DNA of 64,000 nt from Burkholderiales bacterium (lineage in GTDB: Bacteria; Pseudomonadota; Gammaproteobacteria; Burkholderiales; Burkholderiaceae_C): the NCBI GenBank assembly GCA_019510465.1, contig JAEKKH010000154.1, forward strand, positions 1 through 64,000, written 5' to 3'. Shown here piece after piece: positions 48,175 to 59,290 of this stretch. Position 1 is the stretch's first letter. Each line of letters opens with the position of its first letter. The translations under genes and the position numbers were made by a program. The notes below the pieces were generated by a model, which saw nothing but the letters and a program-made list of their open reading frames with translations, was not told the origin of the DNA and searched no databases.

Positions 48175-50793
48175 TCAGCCGGCGGGCGCGTGCGCCGCGA
48201 GCCAGCGATCGGCCTCGGGCAGGCGTTGCGTGCGCACGGTGGCGCGGTAACGTATCAGCGCGGCGTTCTTGACGATGCGCTCGCGCGTGGCCGCGGGCAC
48301 GTGGGCGCGCACGAACGCGTCCAGGCGCGGCAGCAACGCGGGGTCGGCGCCGGTGTCGAAGAAGCGCGCGGCGATCGTGGCGCCCGCGCCTTCGCCGAAC
48401 AGCGGCTCGACCTGCGCCCAGTGGCCGGCGATGAAGTCCAGCGTCAGGCCGGGATGGACCCGTCCCACCGCGCGCATCAGGCGACTGGCCACCGTGGTCG
48501 GCGGCTCGCCGGAGATCGCGAGCTCGAGCGCGCGCTGCGCCAGCGCCGGATCGCGCGGGTGGCCCAGCATCTCGTAGTCTTCCGCCCTCTCCAGTTCCGA
48601 GCCGGCCGCCCGCGCGAGTCCGTGCAACTGCTCCCAGGTGCGCTCGTCCGCGCGCGTCGCGACGACATACAGGACCGCCTCGCGGTGGTCGGCGTCCAGG
48701 CTGTCGTGCTGATCCAGGTAGCGCGCGAACGCCTGGTCGACCCGGCCCAGCACCTGCGGGTCGCCGAACTCGCCCAGCGCCTCGATGAGCGCGACGCGCA
48801 GCGTGCGGACGTCGCCGCTGTCGTCGGGGCGGCCGTCCCAGCCCACGGCGGCCAGGAACGGCGCGAGGCGCGCCCGCGCCCAGCTGCGCAAGGCCGCCTG
48901 CGACGCCAACCCGTCGTGCAGTCGATCGAGATCCTCCAGCTGGGCGACCAGCAGCTGCGCGACGGCCGGCTTGTCGCGCGAGGGCGGCACGCCGTCCATC
49001 AGCGCGAGCAGCTCGCCCATCGGCCGGCGGCCGGCGAGCGCGAGGGCCTGCGTGTCGGCCAGCAGTCCGAGCTGGTCGTCGACGCCCAGGCGTCCGAACG
49101 CGGGCAGCAGCGCGTCCAGGCCCGCGGGCGAATAGCGGACGCGAGCGTAGGTCGACTGGCCCGCGTTGATGATGACCGGGCCGCAGCCGGGCACCGTGAC
49201 CGCCTGCGGCGCCGCGCCGGCGATCACCGCGCGCGTCTCGCCGCCGCCCAGCACCGCCACCTTCACCGGCACGCGCCAGCGTTCGACATGCGGTGCGTCG
49301 ATGCTGAACTGGCCCTGCGAGAGGGTGACCACCGTGCGGCCGTCCGCGCAGCGTGCGTCGAGCTCGGTGACCAGCGGCACGCCGGCCTGCAGCGTGAGGT
49401 CGCGCGCGATGGCGGACACCGGGCGCGGCGTGTCGACGTCCAGCGCGCGCCACAGGTCCTCGGTCACCGTGTTGCCGTACGCATGCCTGGCGATGTAGCG
49501 CCGCACGCCGTCGCGGAAGGTCTCGTCGCCCTGCCAGGCCTCCAGCGTGCGCACCACCTGCGCGCCCTTCGAGTAGGTAATCGTGTCGAACGCGCCCTCG
49601 GCCTGGCTGACGTCGTCGATGTGCATGATCACGGGATGGGTGCCGCGGCGCGCGTCGATGTCCATCGCGCGCTGCTTCTCGCCGGCGTCGTTGGCCCAGC
49701 CGGTCCATTCGGGGTGCAGCTGCTCGACGGCCTTGACCTGCATCCACGACGCGAAACCCTCGTTGAGCCACAGGTCGTCCCACCAGGCCATGGTCACCAG
49801 GTTGCCGAACCACTGGTGCGCGATCTCGTGCGCCACCGTCTCGAAGACGCGGCGGCGGTCATCCTCGCTGGCGCGCCTGTCGTCGACGAGCAGGTCGCGC
49901 TCGAAGTAGAAGATCGCGCCCCAGTTCTCCATCGCGCCGAAGGTGACGCTGCCGCCCGCGCCGGCCACCATGTCCAGCTTGGGCAGCGGATACGGCGTGC
50001 CGAACCACGCGTTGTAGAAAGGCAGCAGCTTCGCGGCGGCATCCAGCGCGTAGGCCGCCTGCGCGGTGTCGCCGCGCTTGACGACGACGCCCACGTCGAC
50101 GCCGCCGACCGTGCGGTGCACGCGCTCGAACTCGCCCAGGCCGAAGAACAGCAGGTAGGTCGACATCGGCGGCGTCCTGGCGAAGCGCACGCGCTTGAGC
50201 TCCCCGGGCAGCGCCTCGGTGGACGCCACCGGCATGTTGCCGATGGGCATCAGCGCGGCGGGCACCGTCACGGTCAGCTCGAAGGTGGCGCGGCGCGCGG
50301 GCTCGTCCCAGCTCGGGACGAAGCGGCGCGCGTCGGAGTCCTCGAACATCGTGTAGAGCGAACGCACGGGCCCTTGCGGCGACTCGTGGTCGAGGTGGAA
50401 CAGGCCGGCGGCCTGGTCGTTGATGTGGCCCGAGTAAGCGATGCGCAGCACGTGGCGGCCGGTCGTGAGCGCATGCGCGAAGGTGAACGTGGCGCGCTGG
50501 CGCTTCGCGTCGAGCGCCATGCGCGGCGCGCCGGCCTCGCCGTCCAGGCGGGCGCTGGCAATGGCCAGGTCGGCGCTGTCCAGCTCGATGCGCTTCGTGC
50601 GGCGCCGCACGTCGACGTCGATCTCGACGCGGCCGTCGAACGTGGACTCGGCCAGGTGCGGCGTGATCTCGAGGCGGTATGCGTCCGGCACGACGTCGTC
50701 GGGCAGGATCATGCGGTTCGCGGGCGCGGCGATCGCGCCGGTGCACAGCACGACGAGGGTGCCGGCGGCGAGCCGGGAAAGGTTCTTCAGCAT
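48175..50793 (-). CDS. M1 family zinc aminopeptidase, secreted
   Basis: GAMENWG; HEIAHQWFGNLVTMAWWDDLWLNEGFASW (HExxH-x18-E). Confidence 0.96.
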   Translation of the reverse strand: MLKNLSRLAAGTLVVLCTGAIAAPANRMILPDDVVPDAYRLEITPHLAESTFDGRVEIDVDVRRRTKRIELDSADLAIASARLDGEAGAPRMALDAKRQRATFTFAHALTTGRHVLRIAYSGHINDQAAGLFHLDHESPQGPVRSLYTMFEDSDARRFVPSWDEPARRATFELTVTVPAALMPIGNMPVASTEALPGELKRVRFARTPPMSTYLLFFGLGEFERVHRTVGGVDVGVVVKRGDTAQAAYALDAAAKLLPFYNAWFGTPYPLPKLDMVAGAGGSVTFGAMENWGAIFYFERDLLVDDRRASEDDRRRVFETVAHEIAHQWFGNLVTMAWWDDLWLNEGFASWMQVKAVEQLHPEWTGWANDAGEKQRAMDIDARRGTHPVIMHIDDVSQAEGAFDTITYSKGAQVVRTLEAWQGDETFRDGVRRYIARHAYGNTVTEDLWRALDVDTPRPVSAIARDLTLQAGVPLVTELDARCADGRTVVTLSQGQFSIDAPHVERWRVPVKVAVLGGGETRAVIAGAAPQAVTVPGCGPVIINAGQSTYARVRYSPAGLDALLPAFGRLGVDDQLGLLADTQALALAGRRPMGELLALMDGVPPSRDKPAVAQLLVAQLEDLDRLHDGLASQAALRSWARARLAPFLAAVGWDGRPDDSGDVRTLRVALIEALGEFGDPQVLGRVDQAFARYLDQHDSLDADHREAVLYVVATRADERTWEQLHGLARAAGSELERAEDYEMLGHPRDPALAQRALELAISGEPPTTVASRLMRAVGRVHPGLTLDFIAGHWAQVEPLFGEGAGATIAARFFDTGADPALLPRLDAFVRAHVPAATRERIVKNAALIRYRATVRTQRLPEADRWLAAHAPAG

Positions 50794-50858
50794 GGAATCG
50801 GGGAATGAAGCGGCGCTGCGCATTCTAGGGATCGGGCCGGGACGCGCTTGCCTTTGAT

Positions 50859-50880
50859 TAACCATACGGTTTACCATTAA
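50859..50880. promoter_or_regulatory. Candidate ArsR-type operator / promoter region
   Basis: AT-rich TAACCATACGGTTTACCATTAAT with AACC-N4-GGTT dyad, just upstream of the VOC/ArsR/SRPBCC operon. Confidence 0.45.
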
Positions 50881-50913
50881 TCCATTCGTTGACCACTTCC
50901 AGCGAGGCATCCC

Positions 50914-51387
50914 ATGCGCAAGTCCCCGCCGGCCGGCTGGCCGCAGGCCCAGTCCGGCCTCTACTATCGCGACGCCGCCAAGGCGATCGACTGGCTGTGC
51001 GACGCGTTCGGCTTCGAACTTCGCCTGAAGGTCGAGGGCGAGCCCGGCGAGATCATCCACAGCGAGCTCGTCTACGGCAGCGCGATGATCTACGTCGGCA
51101 GCGCCGCGAAGCCCGGCGAGGCCGCCGAGCCCGGCCGCGAGTTCAAGACCCGGCATGCCAGCCCGCTGGACGTCGGCGGCCGCAACACGCAGTCGGTGTG
51201 CCTGTTCGTCGACGACGCCGATGCGCACTGCGCCCAGGCCCGCGCGCACGGCGCGGTCATCGTGTCGGAGCCGGCCACGCACGACTACGGCGACGACTAC
51301 TGGAGCGACCGCAGCTACGGCGCAGTCGACCTCGAGGGCCACTCGTGGTGGTTCATGCACCGCGTGCGCGAGCAGCCCGCCCGGTGA
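50914..51387 (+). CDS. VOC (glyoxalase/bleomycin-resistance) family protein
   Basis: YYRDAAKAIDWLCDAFGFELRLKVEGEPGEIIHSEL...YGAVDLEGHSWWF. Confidence 0.92.
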   Translation: MRKSPPAGWPQAQSGLYYRDAAKAIDWLCDAFGFELRLKVEGEPGEIIHSELVYGSAMIYVGSAAKPGEAAEPGREFKTRHASPLDVGGRNTQSVCLFVDDADAHCAQARAHGAVIVSEPATHDYGDDYWSDRSYGAVDLEGHSWWFMHRVREQPAR

Positions 51388-51767
51388 CGCGCCGCGCCGC
51401 TTCCTCCGCGGTCGACGGCGGCGCGCTCGACCGCACGCTGCAGGCCCTGGCCGAGCCCACCCGGCGTGCGGTCGTCGGGCTGCTGCGCCATGGTCCGCGG
51501 CGCGCGGGCGAGATCGCCGACGCGCTCGCGATGTCGCGCCAGGCGATGAGCCGCCACCTGCGCGTGCTGCGCCAGGCCGGCGTGATCCACGAGGTCGCCG
51601 CCGCCGGCCCCGACGACGACGCCCGCGCCCGCACCTACCGTCTCGAGGCCCGGCCGCTGGCCGACCTGCAGTCCTGGCTGGACGAGGTGCAATCGTTCTG
51701 GAGCGTGCAGATGCAGTCGTTCAGGAAACAGGCCGAACGCGTCGCGCGCGAGCGGGGCCGTCGATGA
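51384..51767 (+). CDS. ArsR-family winged-helix regulator
   Basis: LDRTLQALAEPTRRAVVGLLRHGPRRAGEIADALAMSRQAMSRHLRVLRQAGVI; GTG start overlaps the VOC stop (GTGA). Confidence 0.9.
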   Translation: MTRRAASSAVDGGALDRTLQALAEPTRRAVVGLLRHGPRRAGEIADALAMSRQAMSRHLRVLRQAGVIHEVAAAGPDDDARARTYRLEARPLADLQSWLDEVQSFWSVQMQSFRKQAERVARERGRR

Positions 51768-52699
51768 GCGCCGGCGACCGCGTCAGCGCCAGCGTCTTCG
51801 TCGACGCGCCGCCCGACATCGCGTTCGAGGTCTTCACCCGCCAGATCGACAGCTGGTGGCGCCACGGCATGAAGTTCCGCAGCGGGGCGCGCGAGGTCAG
51901 CGTCCTGCACCTGGAGTGCCGGCTCGGCGGCCGCCTGTTCGAGACGATCGAGGCGCCCGGCGGCGACGCCGGCCATGTCGTGCAGACCGGCACGGTCACC
52001 GCGTGGGATCCGCCGCGCGCGCTCGAGATCGAGTGGCGCGGCGTGAACTTCGCGCCGCAGGAAAGGACCACCGTCGCCGTCACGTTCGAGCCGCGCCGCG
52101 AGGGCACGCAAGTGACGCTGGTGCACGCCGGCTGGGCCGCGCTGCCGCCCGACCATCCTGTGCGCCACGGCCAGGCCGTGCGCCCGTTCATCGCCGGCAT
52201 GGGCCTGTGGTGGTCCGACCAGATGACGTCGCTGCGCATGACCGTCGACACGCTGCGCGACGCGCCCTGGCTGCGCATCGCGCGCGCCGAGACCGGCGTG
52301 CGCGCCCATCCGCCGGGCAGCAGCAACCCGCGCATCACCGCGTACCACGCCCATACCGACATCGCCGGCTACGACGACAAGGCGAACTGGTGCTCGTCCT
52401 TCGTCGGCTGGTCCTTGCGCCAGGCCGGCATCGCGGGCACCGGCTCGGCGCTGGCGCGCAGCTGGCTCGACTGGGGCGAGCCGCTCGCCGCGCCGCGCCC
52501 CGGCTGCATCGCCGTGCTGTGGCGCGAGGATCCGGCCAGCTGGAAGGGGCATGTCGGCTTCTTCGTGCGCGAGGACGGCGACGAGATCGTGCTGCTGGGC
52601 GGCAACCAGCTCGGCGCCGTCCGCGAGCAGCGCCATCCGCGGGCGAACGTGCTGTCGTATCGCTGGCCGGCCGCGGCGACCCGGGAGACGGCGCCCTGA
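51764..52699 (+). CDS. SRPBCC (AHSA1-like) domain fused to TIGR02594/CHAP-NlpC-like domain
   Basis: N-term VSASVFVDAPPDIAFEVFTRQIDSWW...; C-term APWLRIARAETGVRAHPPGSSNPRITAYHAHTDIAGYDDKANWCSSFVGWSLRQAGIAGTGSALARSWLDWGEPL...GHVGFF...LLGGNQ. One uninterrupted ORF with ATGA coupling to arsR. Confidence 0.88.
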   Translation: MSAGDRVSASVFVDAPPDIAFEVFTRQIDSWWRHGMKFRSGAREVSVLHLECRLGGRLFETIEAPGGDAGHVVQTGTVTAWDPPRALEIEWRGVNFAPQERTTVAVTFEPRREGTQVTLVHAGWAALPPDHPVRHGQAVRPFIAGMGLWWSDQMTSLRMTVDTLRDAPWLRIARAETGVRAHPPGSSNPRITAYHAHTDIAGYDDKANWCSSFVGWSLRQAGIAGTGSALARSWLDWGEPLAAPRPGCIAVLWREDPASWKGHVGFFVREDGDEIVLLGGNQLGAVREQRHPRANVLSYRWPAAATRETAP

Positions 52700-52848: not shown

Positions 52849-53331
52849 GTGAACGTTCCACTGTCGTTGACCGTCAACGCCAAAGCGGTCGAGGCGAGCG
52901 TCGATCCCCGCACGCTGCTGGTGCAGTTCCTGCGCGAGCAGCTCCGGCTGACCGGCACCCATGTCGGCTGCGACACCGCCCAGTGCGGCGCCTGCACGGT
53001 GCACCTGGACGGACGGGCCGTGAAGTCCTGTTCGATGCTCGCCGTGCAGGCGCAGGGCCGCGCCGTGACGACCATCGAGGGCCTCGCGCCCGCGGGCGAG
53101 CTGCATCCGATGCAGGCCGCGTTCCGCGAATGCCATGGCCTGCAGTGCGGGTTCTGCACGCCCGGCATGGTGATGGCCTCGGTGCAACTGCTCGCCGACA
53201 ACCCCAAGGCGACCGAGGACGACATCCGCTGCGGCCTCGATGGCAACCTGTGCCGCTGCACGGGATATCACAACATCGTGCGCGCGGTGCAGGCCTGCCA
53301 GTCCGGCCAGGTCGGCTCCACCGCCATCTGA
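52849..53331 (+). CDS. coxS: (2Fe-2S)-binding small subunit of a molybdenum hydroxylase (CoxS-like)
   Basis: [23 protein letters not shown]...[10 protein letters not shown]...[10 protein letters not shown]. Confidence 0.93.
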
Positions 53332-53344
53332 AGGAGGCGCCGCC

Positions 53345-55705
53345 ATGACCGACCTCTCGCAGCCGCCCGCCTCCCTCATCGGCCAGCCGCTCAGGCGCCG
53401 CGAGGATGCGCGCTTCCTCACCGGCGCCGGCCAGTACACGGACGACGTCGTCCTGCCCGGCCAGAGCTACGCCGTGTTCGTGCGCTCGCCCCATGCGCAT
53501 GCCCGCATCACGTCCATCGACACGTCGGCGGCCAAGGCCGCGCCCGGCGTGCTCGCCGTCTTCACCGGCGCGGACCTGGCCGAGGCCAAGGTCGGCGGCC
53601 TGCCCTGCGGCTGGCTCATCCACAGCCAGGACGGCTCGCCGATGAAGGAGCCGCCGCACCCGGTGCTGGCGCAGGGCAAGGTGCGCCATGTCGGCGACCA
53701 GCTGGCGCTCGTGGTCGCCGAGACGCTGCTGCAGGCCAAGGACGCGGCCGAGCTCGTGGCGGTCGACTACGAGGAACTGCCGCCGGTGGTCGACCTGAAG
53801 AGCGCCGCCGGCGCCGCCTCGTCGGTGCACGACGACGTCCCCGGCAACGTCTGCTACGACTGGTCCCACGGCGACAAGGCCGCGGTCGACGCCGCGTTCG
53901 CGCGCGCCGCGCGGGTCACCAGGCTGGAATTCGCCAACAACCGGCTCGTGCCCAACGCGATCGAGCCGCGCGCCGCCAACGCGCAGTACACGCGCCACGA
54001 CGACAGCTACACGCTGTGGGTCGCCAACCAGAACCCGCACGTCGAGCGGCTGCTGATGACGGCCTTCGTGCTGGGCCTGCCCGAATCCAAGGTCCGCGTG
54101 ATCGCGCCCGACGTGGGCGGCGGCTTCGGCTCGAAGATCTTCCTCTACCCCGAGGAGACGGCGCTCGTGTGGGCGTCCAGGCGCGTGGGCCGGCCCATCA
54201 AGTGGACCGCCGAGCGCAGCGAGTCGTTCCTGACCGACGCGCACGGCCGCGACCACCTGACGACCGCGGAACTGGCCATGAACGAGCAGGGCGACTTCCT
54301 CGCCATGCGCGTGAAGACGACCGCCAACATGGGCGCGTATCTCTCGACCTTCGCATCCAGCGTGCCCACCATCCTGTACGCCACGCTGCTCGCGGGCCAG
54401 TACCGCACGCCCGCCATCCACGCCCAGGTCACCGCCGTCTTCACGAACACGGCGCCGGTGGACGCCTACCGCGGCGCGGGCCGCCCCGAGGCGACCTACG
54501 TCGTCGAACGGCTGGTGGAGACCGCGGCGCGCGACCTCGGCATGAGCCCGGTGGACATCCGCCGGCGCAACTTCATCACCGAGTTCCCGTACGCGACGCC
54601 GGTCGGGCTGACCTACGACACCGGCAACTACGCCGCCCACCTGGACCGCGCGCTCGAGCTCGCGGACGTGGCCGGCTTCGCCGCGCGGCGCGAGCAGTCG
54701 AGGGCGGCCGGCAATCTGCGCGGCCTCGGCTACAGCTGCTACATCGAGGCCTGCGGCCTGGCGCCCAGCAACATCGCCGGGGCGCTCGGCGCGCGCGCCG
54801 GCCTGTTCGAGGCGGGCGAGGTGCGCGTGCACCCGACGGGCAGCGTCACCGTGTTCACCGGCTCGCACAGCCACGGCCAGGGCCACGAGACGACCTTCGC
54901 GCAGGTGGTCGCGGCGCGCCTGGGCATCCCGGTCGAGAGCGTCGAGATCGTGCACGGCGACACCGGCCGCGTCCCCTTCGGCATGGGCACCTACGGCAGC
55001 CGCTCGCTGGCGGTGGGCGGCACGGCCATCGTCAAGGCGGTCGACAAGGTGATCGCCAAGGGCAGGAAGATCGCCGCGCACCTGCTCGAGGCCGCGGACT
55101 CCGACATCGAGTTCGAGAACGGCGAGTTCAAGGTGGCCGGCACCGACCGCAAGATCCCGTTCGGCCAGGTGGCGCTGACAGCCTACGTGCCGCACAACTA
55201 CCCCCTCGACAAGCTCGAGCCCGGCCTGAACGAGAACGCGTTCTACGACCCGACCAACTTCACCTACCCGGCGGGCAGCTACGTCTGCGAGGTCGAGGTC
55301 GACCCCGAGACGGGCCGCGTGCGCGTCGAGCGCTTCACCGCGGTGGACGACTTCGGCAACATCGTCAACCCGATGATCGTGCAGGGCCAGGTGCACGGCG
55401 GCATCGCGCAGGGCCTGGGCCAGGCGATGCTCGAAGGCTGCCGCTACGACCCGGAGTCGGGCCAGCTGCTCACCGGCTCGTACATGGACTACTGCATGCC
55501 GCGGGCCGACGACCTGCCCAGCTACCAGGTCGACCACACGGTGACCCCGTGCACGCACAACCCGCTGGGCGTCAAGGGCTGCGGCGAGGCCGGCGCCATC
55601 GGCTCGCCGCCGGCCTACATCAACGCGCTCACCGACGCGCTCGGCGTGCGCGACATCGCCATGCCCGCCACGCCCGAGCGCGTCTGGCGCGCCGTCAACC
55701 GCTGA
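53345..55705 (+). CDS. coxL: Xanthine dehydrogenase family molybdopterin-binding subunit (form II CoxL-like)
   Basis: [15 protein letters not shown]; active-site loop [19 protein letters not shown] (form II type). Confidence 0.93.
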
Positions 55706-55724
55706 ACGCCGAGGAGGTCCCGCC

Positions 55725-56519
55725 ATGTACGACTTCGACTACCAGCGCCCCGCCGACGCGAAGGCGGCCGCGGCCGCGTTCCAGGGCGACGCGCGCTATC
55801 TCGCGGGCGGCCAGAGCCTCGTGCAGGCGATGCGGCTGCGGCTGTCGAGCAGCGAACGCCTCGTCGACCTCGGCGCCATCCCGGCGCTGAAGGGCATCCG
55901 CGTGGACGGCGGCACGGTGACCATCGGCGCGATGACCACCCACGCCACGGTCGCGCGCTCGCCCGAAGTGCGCCAGGCGATCCCCGCGCTGGCGGACCTC
56001 GCGGGCTGGATCGGCGACCCGAGCGTGCGCAACATGGGCACCCTCGGCGGCTCCATCGCCAACGCCGACCCCGCCGCCGACTACCCCGCGGCGCTGCTGG
56101 CCCTCGGCGCCACGGTGCAGACCGACCGGCGCACGATCCCCGCGGAGCAGTTCTTCACCGGCCTGTACGAGACGGGCCTGCAGCCCGGCGAGCTGGTCGC
56201 GGCGGTGCGCTTTCCCGTGCCGCAGGCCGCCGGCTACGAGAAGTACCGCAACCCGGCCTCGCGCTTCGCGCTGGTGGGCGTGTTCGTCGCGAAGACGGCG
56301 GCCGGCGTGCGCGTGGCCGTCACGGGCGCGAAGAGCCACGTCTTCCGCAGTCCCGAGCTCGAGGCCGCGCTCTCGGCGAACTTCGCGCCCGACGCCGCCA
56401 AGGCGGTGCGCCTGTCGCCCGGCGGCATGAACGCCGACCTGCATGCCTCGAGCGAGTACCGCGCGGCGATGGTCAGCGTGATGGCGTCGCGGGCGGTGGC
56501 GGCGGCGCTGGCGCGATGA
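55725..56519 (+). CDS. coxM: FAD-binding medium subunit (CoxM-like)
   Basis: [16 protein letters not shown]...[30 protein letters not shown]. Confidence 0.93.
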
Positions 56520-56580
56520 GCGCCCACCGCGCCGCTGCGAAGGGCGCTCGCACGGCAGCCCGCAGGGCGGAGCCCGCCTT
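56516..56580 (+). repeat. 65-bp junctional repeat, copy A (between coxM and moxR/coxD)
   Basis: ATGAGCG...GCGAAGGGCGCTCGCACGGCAGCCCGCAGGGCGGAG...; same length and core as the 62269 and 62334 copies; starts on the coxM stop overlap (ATGA) and ends at the GTGA of the next gene. Confidence 0.92.
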
Positions 56581-57513
56581 GTGAGCGAGGGCGAGCGCGA
56601 TGCGGCGCGGCCCCCGCCGCCCGCGTCCGTCGACGAGCTCGCGGCGCGCCTGGCCGCGCAGGACTACGTCTGCGACCGATCGCTGGCCACCGCGCTGTTC
56701 CTCGCGCTGAAGCTGGGCCGGCCGCTGTTCCTCGAGGGCGAGCCCGGCGTCGGCAAGACCGAGCTCGCGAAGTCCCTCGCGCGCGCGCTCGACGCACGGC
56801 TGCTGCGCGTGCAGTGCTTCGAGGGACTGGACATCGCGCAGACGGCCTACGAGTGGAACGTCGCGCGGCAGATGATCGAGATCCGCCTCGCGGAGGCCGC
56901 GCACGACGTCGACCGCGCCCGGCTCGCGCAGTCGCTGTACGCGCGCGACATGCTCATCGAGCGCCCGCTGCTGCAGGCCCTGACGCAGGCGGCGTCGCCG
57001 GTGCTGCTCATCGACGAGCTCGATCGCGCCGACGAGCCCTTCGACGCCTTCCTGCTCGAGGTGCTGGCCGAGAACCAGCTCACCATTCCCGAGTTCGGCA
57101 CCGTGCGCGCCGTCGCGCCGCCGATCACGATCATCACGAGCAACCGCACGCGCGAGGTGCATGACGCGCTCAAGCGCCGCTGCCTGTACCACTGGGTCGG
57201 CTTCCCGGACGTGGAGCGCGAGCTCGAGATCCTGCGCCTGCGCGTGCCCGGCGCCCCGCAGCGGCTGTCGCGCCAGGTCGTCGAATTCGTGCAGCGCATG
57301 CGCGGGCTCGACCTGTTCAAGGCGCCCGGCGTCGCCGAGACGATCGACTGGACGAACGCGCTCGTCGCGCTCGACGCGATCAGCCTCGACCCGCGCACCG
57401 TGCACGACACGCTGGGCGTGCTGCTGAAGTACCAGGAGGACATCGAACGCCTGCGCGCCGGCGACTCGAACCGCCTGCTCGACGAGCTGCGCGCCGCGGG
57501 AGCGCTCGCGTGA
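56581..57513 (+). CDS. coxD: MoxR-family AAA+ ATPase (CoxD-like)
   Basis: GTG start; PLFLEGEPGVGKTELAKSLARAL (Walker A), PVLLIDELDRADEPFDAFLLEVLAENQ. Confidence 0.92.
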   Translation: MSEGERDAARPPPPASVDELAARLAAQDYVCDRSLATALFLALKLGRPLFLEGEPGVGKTELAKSLARALDARLLRVQCFEGLDIAQTAYEWNVARQMIEIRLAEAAHDVDRARLAQSLYARDMLIERPLLQALTQAASPVLLIDELDRADEPFDAFLLEVLAENQLTIPEFGTVRAVAPPITIITSNRTREVHDALKRRCLYHWVGFPDVERELEILRLRVPGAPQRLSRQVVEFVQRMRGLDLFKAPGVAETIDWTNALVALDAISLDPRTVHDTLGVLLKYQEDIERLRAGDSNRLLDELRAAGALA

Positions 57514-58694
57514 TCGCCGAGAACGTCGCGCACTTCGCGCGCGTGCTGCGCGCGGCGGGCCTGGCCGTGGGGCCCGACCGCGTCGTCGTCGCGGTCACCG
57601 CGCTGGAGTGCGTCGGATTCGACCGGCGCGAGGACGTGCGCGCCGCGCTGTCGGCCGTGATGACCGATCGCCACGACCAGCAGCCCCTGTTCGACGCCGC
57701 CTTCGACGCCTTCTGGCGCGACCCCAAGCTGCTCGAGAAGCTGCTGATGGAACTGCTGCCCAGGATCAGCGGGCGCGGCACGCGGCCGCGCGAGGCGCGC
57801 TCCAATCGCCTCGCGCAGGCGCTGGCGCCCGGGCGCGAGCGCTCGCCGGCGCCCGCGAACCCGGGTGCGAGCGAGGACATCCGTTTCGATGCAAGCTTCA
57901 CGTTCTCCGATCGCGAACGACTGCAGCGGGCGGACTTCGAGACCATGACCTCCGACGAATTCGCGCTCGCCAGCCGCCTGGCCGAGGAACTGCCGCCGCC
58001 GGTCGCCCCCGTGCGGCGGCGACGCCACGAGCGCGCGCCGCGCGGCCGGCCCGACTTGCGCGCCACGCTGCGCCGCATGGCCCGCGCGCCGGACACGCTC
58101 GTGCCCGCCACGACCCGGCCGCGGCGCGAGCTGCCGCCGGTGGTCGTGCTGCTCGACGTCTCGGGTTCGATGGACCGCTATGCGCGGGTCATGCTGCACT
58201 ACGTCCATGGCCTCGCGCGGCGCCACGTCCGCGTCCACGCCTTCGCGTTCGGCACCCGGCTGACCGACATCACGCGCTGCCTGCGCGACCGCGATCCCGA
58301 CGTCGCGCTGGCGGCGGTCGCCGAGCGCGTGGGCGACTGGCATGGCGGCACGCGCATCGCGAGCTGCCTGGCCGAATTCAACCGCCGCTGCGCGCGCCGC
58401 GTGCTGGGCGCCAACGCGGCCGTCCTGCTGGTGACCGACGGCCTGGACCGCGACGAGCACGGCGGCCTCGCCGAGGAGGCGGCGCGGCTGCGGCGCCAGG
58501 CGCACGAGCTCGTGTGGCTCAACCCCTTGCTGCGCTTCGAGGGCTTCGAACCCCGCGCCGCGGGCGTGCGGGCGCTGCTGCCGCACGTCGACCGCTTTCT
58601 TCCGGTGCACAACCTCGCGAGCCTGGCCGACCTGCGGCGCGCGCTGCAGGCCGCCACCGCGTCGCCCCGACCTTCGAGCCGACCATGGAACTGA
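57510..58694 (+). CDS. coxE: VWA domain-containing protein (CoxE-like)
   Basis: VVVLLDVSGSMDRYARVMLHYVHGL MIDAS motif. Confidence 0.92.
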   Translation: MIAENVAHFARVLRAAGLAVGPDRVVVAVTALECVGFDRREDVRAALSAVMTDRHDQQPLFDAAFDAFWRDPKLLEKLLMELLPRISGRGTRPREARSNRLAQALAPGRERSPAPANPGASEDIRFDASFTFSDRERLQRADFETMTSDEFALASRLAEELPPPVAPVRRRRHERAPRGRPDLRATLRRMARAPDTLVPATTRPRRELPPVVVLLDVSGSMDRYARVMLHYVHGLARRHVRVHAFAFGTRLTDITRCLRDRDPDVALAAVAERVGDWHGGTRIASCLAEFNRRCARRVLGANAAVLLVTDGLDRDEHGGLAEEAARLRRQAHELVWLNPLLRFEGFEPRAAGVRALLPHVDRFLPVHNLASLADLRRALQAATASPRPSSRPWN

Positions 58695-59290
58695 CCGGCG
58701 AGCGACTCATCCCCGCGGATCGCGCCACGACCTGGGCCGCCATCAACGATCCCGCGATCCTCAAGGACTGCATCGCCGGCTGCGAGTCGCTCGAGCGCAC
58801 GGGCGACGACGGCTTCGCGGCCGTCGTCGCCGTGCGCGTCGGTCCCGTCAGCGCGAAGTTCCGGGGCACGCTGCGCCTGCTCGACGTCCGGCCGCCCGAG
58901 CACTGCACGCTGCAGTTCGACGCGCAGGGCGGCGCCGCGGGCTTCGGCAAGGGGTCGGCCGACGTCGACCTGTCCGAGGCCGGGCCCGGGCGCACGACGC
59001 TGCGCTATGCGTCCCGGGCCACGGTGGGCGGCAAGATGGCGCAGATCGGCTCGCGGCTCGTCGATGCCGCCGCCGCCAAGCTCGCGGAGGACTTCTTCAC
59101 GGCCTTCGAGGCGCGGCTCGCGCCACCGGCCGCCGCGGCGCCACCGGCCGGCGCGGCGGGCTCGTTGAGCGCCGACGCCACGTCGACGCCATCGCCTGCG
59201 GCCGCGAGCCCGGCTCGCAACGGCCTGCTGGCGGTGGTCGTCCTTGCAGCGGCGCTGCTGGCGATCGCCGCCTGGCTCGCGACGAGGTGA
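58685..59290 (+). CDS. coxG: CoxG-like SRPBCC protein with C-terminal TM anchor
   Basis: MELTGERLIPADRATTWAAINDPAILKDCIAGCESLE; C-terminal NGLLAVVVLAAALLAIAAWLATR. Confidence 0.92.
   Translation: MELTGERLIPADRATTWAAINDPAILKDCIAGCESLERTGDDGFAAVVAVRVGPVSAKFRGTLRLLDVRPPEHCTLQFDAQGGAAGFGKGSADVDLSEAGPGRTTLRYASRATVGGKMAQIGSRLVDAAAAKLAEDFFTAFEARLAPPAAAAPPAGAAGSLSADATSTPSPAAASPARNGLLAVVVLAAALLAIAAWLATR

Follow-up and report, generated by a model that had tools for sequence, protein, structure and literature searches.

YkfC is a cytosolic gamma-D-Glu-diamino-acid endopeptidase (PMC2954226, PMC9928106), and the YkfC protein of Chlamydia, a leaderless member of the NlpC/P60 group, acts in cytosolic peptidoglycan recycling (PMC9928106). 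The TIGR02594 domain is present in T6SS effectors (PMC13055248; PMC13340143); in this family, the domain either stands alone or is preceded by LysM, SH3, glycosidase-like or phage tail domains. Among the AHSA1-like SRPBCC proteins, those with a solved structure, such as 3q63 and TxnO9 (5z36), consist of a single domain.

Here, we analysed a window of 64,000 nucleotides from a Burkholderiales bacterium (contig JAEKKH010000154.1, assembly GCA_019510465.1), in which an SRPBCC half and a TIGR02594 half are encoded by one gene. The N-terminal half of the product matches 3q63 and TxnO9 in fold and sequence, whereas the complete protein, in contrast to these, consists of two domains. Its C-terminal half shares with the TIGR02594 family the full-length model match as well as the motifs WCSSF, GHVGFF and GGNQ, and differs from its relatives in standing behind an SRPBCC domain. 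The fusion pairs two already known domain families, and the pairing is uncommon and genus-specific. No paper on an SRPBCC-NlpC fusion was found in the literature.

Gene organisation

The fusion gene stands at the end of a VOC-ArsR-SRPBCC operon (Table 1), in which the stop codon of arsR overlaps the fusion start in the sequence ATGA, while the VOC gene overlaps arsR in the sequence GTGA. VOC and ArsR orthologues occupy the same place in 4/4 fused and 5/5 unfused operons; an overlap of the arsR end with the fusion start is found in three of the four genus genomes, the copy of an uncultured beta-proteobacterium (L021) having its start downstream of the arsR end. Profile searches assigned both halves of the product: the AHSA1 model (PF08327) was matched by residues 14-131 with 41.8 bits (Pfam gathering cut-off 22.1), and TIGR02594 by residues 168-301 with 123.3 bits and an E-value of 7.9e-36 (NCBIfam curated cut-off 70.55), the latter model being covered from end to end (positions 1-132 of 132). 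A signal peptide was not apparent at the N-terminus when read by eye, and we infer a cytosolic location of the protein.

The initial annotation, made from the letters and open reading frames of the same DNA, had described a leaderless, uninterrupted 311-codon frame coupled to arsR by ATGA, with these two domains, in a VOC-ArsR-SRPBCC operon. This description holds throughout: the frame is open, the overlap is present, the N-terminus shows no apparent leader by eye, the domains are confirmed by the two profile matches, and gene order, overlaps and Pfam matches agree with the operon. Its additional CHAP label turned out to be a poor one, as CHAP (PF05257) gave a marginal score of 27.0 bits at a cut-off of 26 and the fold is nearest to NlpC/P60 D,L-endopeptidases.

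Table 1. Positions of the fusion gene, its parts and the other operon features within the window.
Feature	Position	Strand	Description and evidence
Candidate ArsR operator	50854..50877	.	imperfect palindrome TTGATTAACCATACGGTTTACCAT; palindromic sequence, same place in 4 fused operons
Second candidate operator element	50877..50892	.	TTAATCCATTCGTTGA, degenerate here; near-perfect in relatives
VOC (glyoxalase/bleomycin-resistance fold)	50914..51387	+	157 aa, first gene of the operon; PF00903 2e-11
ArsR-type repressor	51384..51767	+	127 aa, GTG start; winged helix by HTH_20 (PF12840) 4.3e-14 and HTH_5 (PF01022) 5.1e-11
Fusion gene SRPBCC (AHSA1-like) + TIGR02594 (NlpC/P60-like)	51764..52699	+	311 aa, single uninterrupted frame (ORF check of the window); kept in 4/4 genus genomes
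SRPBCC/AHSA1 half	51764..52243	+	residues 1-160 including C-terminal helix; PF08327, ends of unfused orthologues, PDB fold matches
Junction	52244..52264	+	residues 161-167; alignment with the ends of unfused SRPBCC proteins and the starts of standalone TIGR02594 proteins, AF2 helices
TIGR02594 cysteine-peptidase-like domain	52265..52666	+	residues 168-301; full-length model match, mean AF2 pLDDT 93.5, NlpC/P60 folds
Cys210 codon TGC	52391..52393	+	candidate nucleophile in WCSSF; invariant in 52 sequences
His263 codon CAT	52550..52552	+	candidate general base in GHVGFF; invariant in 52 sequences
Asn281 codon AAC	52604..52606	+	candidate third catalytic residue in GGNQ; invariant in 52 sequences

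Upstream of the VOC gene, two palindromic elements are candidate ArsR operators by position only; the second, degenerate in the window, has the near-perfect form ATCAACGCATCCGTTGAT in Scleromatobacter humisilvae (L022). Some unfused operons have other palindromes at the corresponding place. On the upstream side, the operon adjoins a divergent gene read by eye as an M1-type aminopeptidase with an apparent signal peptide (48175-50793, minus strand), whose position beside the operon is conserved in L021 and L022. The downstream genes (52849-59290, plus strand) resemble, likewise by eye, a carbon-monoxide-dehydrogenase-type molybdenum hydroxylase cluster with 2Fe-2S, large and FAD subunits as well as MoxR-like, VWA and CoxG-like members.

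Conservation and distribution

The fusion was found in all four genomes of the genus, namely that of the window, S. humisilvae (L022/L002), an uncultured beta-proteobacterium (L021/L101) and a further genome (G201; L102), with the same operon, the same domain order and 75-77% identity. None of the four copies contains a stop or frameshift and all of them carry the catalytic residues. In pairwise comparisons of the four fused genes, pN/pS ranged from 0.35 to 0.52 in the SRPBCC half and from 0.42 to 0.72 in the TIGR02594 half, figures that are unreliable because pS is distorted at a GC3 of ~0.96; pN was lower than pS in both halves, and the C-terminal ratio was somewhat above the N-terminal one.

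The window comes from a fragmented draft genome of 516 contigs and 89% completeness, and an indel or a misassembly could in principle have fused two neighbouring genes. However, three further, independent assemblies carry the same fusion, one of them that of the isolate S. humisilvae with its copy on a 2-Mb contig. Since fusion, operon and domain order recur in three other genomes, they reflect neither chance nor an assembly error; we thus rule out the artefact and regard the fusion as a single intact gene with near certainty. The two scenarios that the initial annotation had named as fatal to its reading, genes joined by a sequencing indel and homologues encoded as two proteins, fail accordingly: the fusion recurs in four separate assemblies, and a search for homologues of the operon with the two halves as neighbouring separate genes found none. 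Two copies that looked like split genes (L002 and L102) were rejected as such, the apparent internal stops being terminal stops.

Outside the genus, a match covering both halves was obtained in none of the 397 other family genomes, 368 class genomes and 398 phylum genomes sampled (samples that overlap partly), and the SRPBCC half as the only query (E <= 1e-20) gave no further match in the order sample. When ~85,000 species were scanned with peptides of the two halves, 140 relatives emerged, and among the best 80 of these only L021 and L022 cover both halves; the scan relies on the chosen peptides, so that distant fusions without them would escape. Apparently longer SRPBCC rows (G656, G726 and others) were discarded, as the extension crosses a stop into unrelated sequence.

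Evolutionary origin

Unfused VOC-ArsR-SRPBCC operons are present in five genomes (L008, L009, L109, L110 and L111). They share the gene order and orthologous VOC, ArsR and SRPBCC genes with the locus described here, whereas their SRPBCC proteins, which are 42-47% identical to the N-terminal half of the fusion, terminate in the alignment within a few residues of the junction and have no TIGR02594 half. Standalone TIGR02594 genes, in turn, are scattered through the Burkholderiales; they encode leaderless proteins (no signal peptide was apparent) of ~145 aa with up to ~73% identity and start at the junction. As the unfused SRPBCC proteins end close to this point and the standalone TIGR02594 proteins start at it, we consider it highly probable that two complete genes were joined head to tail. 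In the phylogenetic tree, the fused copies form one group (one change; 97% of bootstrap trees; branch support 93/37) nested in a clade of 44, and the joining probably occurred once, in the genus ancestor. An intermediate with both genes side by side was not found. The observed architecture and its conservation would fit a route in which, in the genus ancestor, a TIGR02594 gene of the standalone, leaderless kind came to lie immediately downstream of the operon and the SRPBCC stop was lost, leaving one gene for a cytosolic two-domain protein.

That the gene might be a fusion had already been proposed in the initial annotation, and the unfused operons and standalone genes that meet at the junction support this idea. 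Its attribute 'recent' is not supported, since the two halves of the gene in the window have the same GC3 (~0.96) and the four copies are ~25% apart in protein. A recent horizontal gain was rejected as well, given the equal composition of both halves.

The fusion might also be neutral, with two domains that work independently and a peptidase half that merely gained a promoter and a tether. Both halves retain the conserved residues of their unfused relatives, the junction comprises only a few residues between complete domains, and standalone copies occur in scattered contexts, all of which would be expected from such an event. We nevertheless give it a low probability, as the two domains are kept as one gene throughout four divergent genomes and the split form was never seen behind a VOC-ArsR-SRPBCC operon.

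Structure and predicted catalysis

According to its confident AF2 model, the TIGR02594 half is a papain-like NlpC/P60 fold. The nearest folds in the PDB were NlpC/P60 endopeptidases, namely C. difficile autolysins, MepS, a T. thermophilus endopeptidase, RipB and B. cereus 3h41, the top matches having an E-value of 1e-4, a TM-score of ~0.5-0.6 and an identity of 10-19%. The entry 3h41, which we take to be YkfC of B. cereus, aligned with a TMq of 0.59 and an rmsd of 3.9. CHAP endolysins ranked below the NlpC/P60 domains, and the E. coli glutathionylspermidine amidase was among the weak matches. In an alignment of 52 sequences from Burkholderiales, Rhizobiales, Bacteroidota and others (L084 left out), the columns W209, C210, H263, G280 and N281 are invariant, and they include the Cys (NWCSSF) and His (GHVGFF) proposed as catalytic from the outset. 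Judged from these residues, the C-terminal half is likely an active cysteine hydrolase with a putative Cys210-His263-Asn281 triad. In the sequence left out (L084:4028-4456, from a Hyphomicrobiales MAG), Ser replaces the catalytic Cys (TSWSSAF); L053, closely related to it, begins with an Rv2525c glycosidase-like region.

For the SRPBCC half, AHSA1/START proteins were on top of the PDB fold search. The AF2 model contains strands and a C-terminal helix (139-166) as in the helix-grip fold; its quality is moderate in places, with stretches below pLDDT 50, and the packing of the two domains is unreliable. In the model of the whole protein, the helix 139-166 is followed with hardly a gap by the first peptidase helix (168-174), and a continuous helical junction of this kind would allow interdomain coupling. 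The SRPBCC half would be a ligand-binding module for a hydrophobic small ligand.

Relatives of the peptidase half

The C-terminal domain of Ackermannviridae-type baseplate hub/tail lysozymes (phrog_1259) is 43-47% identical to the fusion over the catalytic domain; it is part of a large virion protein without SRPBCC, whereas the fusion has an SRPBCC partner. Further cell-wall surroundings of the TIGR02594 domain are proteins in which it follows LysM or Rv2525c glycosidase-like N-termini, and by eye a holin-like gene family was seen beside TIGR02594 in 22 loci. TIGR02594 genes of Bacteroidota (L064-L100; many of them Flavobacteria) lie near holin-like and tail-collar-like genes, which suggests phage or tailocin lysis cassettes.

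Tail lysozymes, holin-like neighbours in Flavobacteria and the T6SS effectors mentioned above would agree with the toxin-like effector considered in the initial annotation, or with a lytic one. Such a protein would be a phage lysin or T6SS-type peptidase that was domesticated and serves to attack competitors or to lyse the cell itself. However, the proteins most closely related to the C-terminal half are encoded on Burkholderiales chromosomes, stand alone, lack a leader and are not T6SS or phage proteins, and the fusion itself has no signal peptide by eye. Reading by eye of the genes called around the fusion in the window and in L021 and L022 revealed no delivery domain, immunity gene, holin or virion context, and the genes next to it included no recognisable T6SS marker or secretion gene. 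To our knowledge, SRPBCC is not a known delivery domain either, which we count against this reading. The effector idea is thus weak, and we rejected it as highly improbable.

The architecture had been called odd. The pairing of the domains is uncommon, but the wide occurrence of leaderless TIGR02594 proteins in Burkholderiales makes it less strange than it had seemed. In Paraburkholderia and Burkholderia, including plasmids, a gene for a VanX-type M15 D-Ala-D-Ala dipeptidase overlaps or adjoins the TIGR02594 gene (L117:4273-5405; L118:4277-5423; L050-L052). The paired M15 proteins have no apparent signal peptide, which points to a possible role of this branch in cytosolic peptidoglycan-peptide metabolism. 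In beta-proteobacterial MAGs, a nitronate monooxygenase gene is overlapped at its end by a standalone TIGR02594 gene (L039:914-2313; L041:3048-4441). Since the contexts of the standalone Burkholderiales relatives are very varied, no pathway is fixed by context.

Functional interpretation

What, then, might the fusion protein do? We favour, with a probability of roughly 0.5, an ArsR-controlled cytosolic cysteine peptidase that acts on soluble peptidoglycan peptides and carries SRPBCC as a ligand module. ArsR would probably repress the operon from the palindromes upstream of VOC; release by an inducer would then lead to joint production of VOC and the fusion protein. Like YkfC, the C-terminal domain would probably work in the cytosol and cleave an amide bond of soluble peptides derived from peptidoglycan. 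The most speculative step concerns SRPBCC, which may bind a hydrophobic small ligand and either act as a tether that links the peptidase with the same stress response, or modulate the peptidase via the helical junction.

The likeness to YkfC extends to the NlpC/P60 fold, catalysis by Cys, His and a polar residue (predicted in the fusion) and the absence of a leader. In contrast, the polar residue is Asn in the fusion and His in YkfC, and the sequence identity is ~10%. The SH3b domains of YkfC shape its S2-S1 substrate pocket, whereas the fusion has SRPBCC in their place, its N-terminal half being SRPBCC by Pfam and AF2 and not an SH3b of the YkfC type. As the operon does not contain any cell-wall gene, the substrate assignment rests on the relatives of the domain, and by this analogy we propose peptidoglycan peptides tentatively, at somewhat less than even odds. 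A functional coupling between SRPBCC and the peptidase is conceivable, with the balance tilted against it. In its strongest form, the SRPBCC ligand would switch the cytosolic NlpC/P60 peptidase on or off via the helical junction, turning a stress signal into breakdown of peptidoglycan peptides; we consider this rather improbable. If true, it would link a chemical stress signal to the breakdown of such peptides.

The peptidase half might instead be a repurposed amidase. It would then split an amide or isopeptide bond of a xenobiotic or thiol conjugate that SRPBCC binds or delivers, so that VOC, SRPBCC and peptidase would form one detoxification operon. VOC and SRPBCC under an ArsR repressor are typical of small-molecule stress modules, glutathionylspermidine amidase is among the weak fold matches, and the lack of a cell-wall gene would fit as well. 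However, the closest solved folds are peptidoglycan endopeptidases, and the C-terminal half is up to ~73% identical to standalone proteins outside such operons, so that little specialisation is visible in it. Hence, we regard the repurposed amidase as unlikely and prefer the cytosolic peptidase acting on peptidoglycan peptides.

If the C-terminal half is an active hydrolase of peptidoglycan peptides, a small-molecule-binding fold would be tied directly to a cytosolic cell-wall peptidase, with the repressor encoded in the same operon. The system is present in the cultured S. humisilvae. Beyond the fusion itself, leaderless TIGR02594 proteins emerge as an uncharacterised group spread across the Burkholderiales, and in one of its branches they are coupled to VanX-type dipeptidases.
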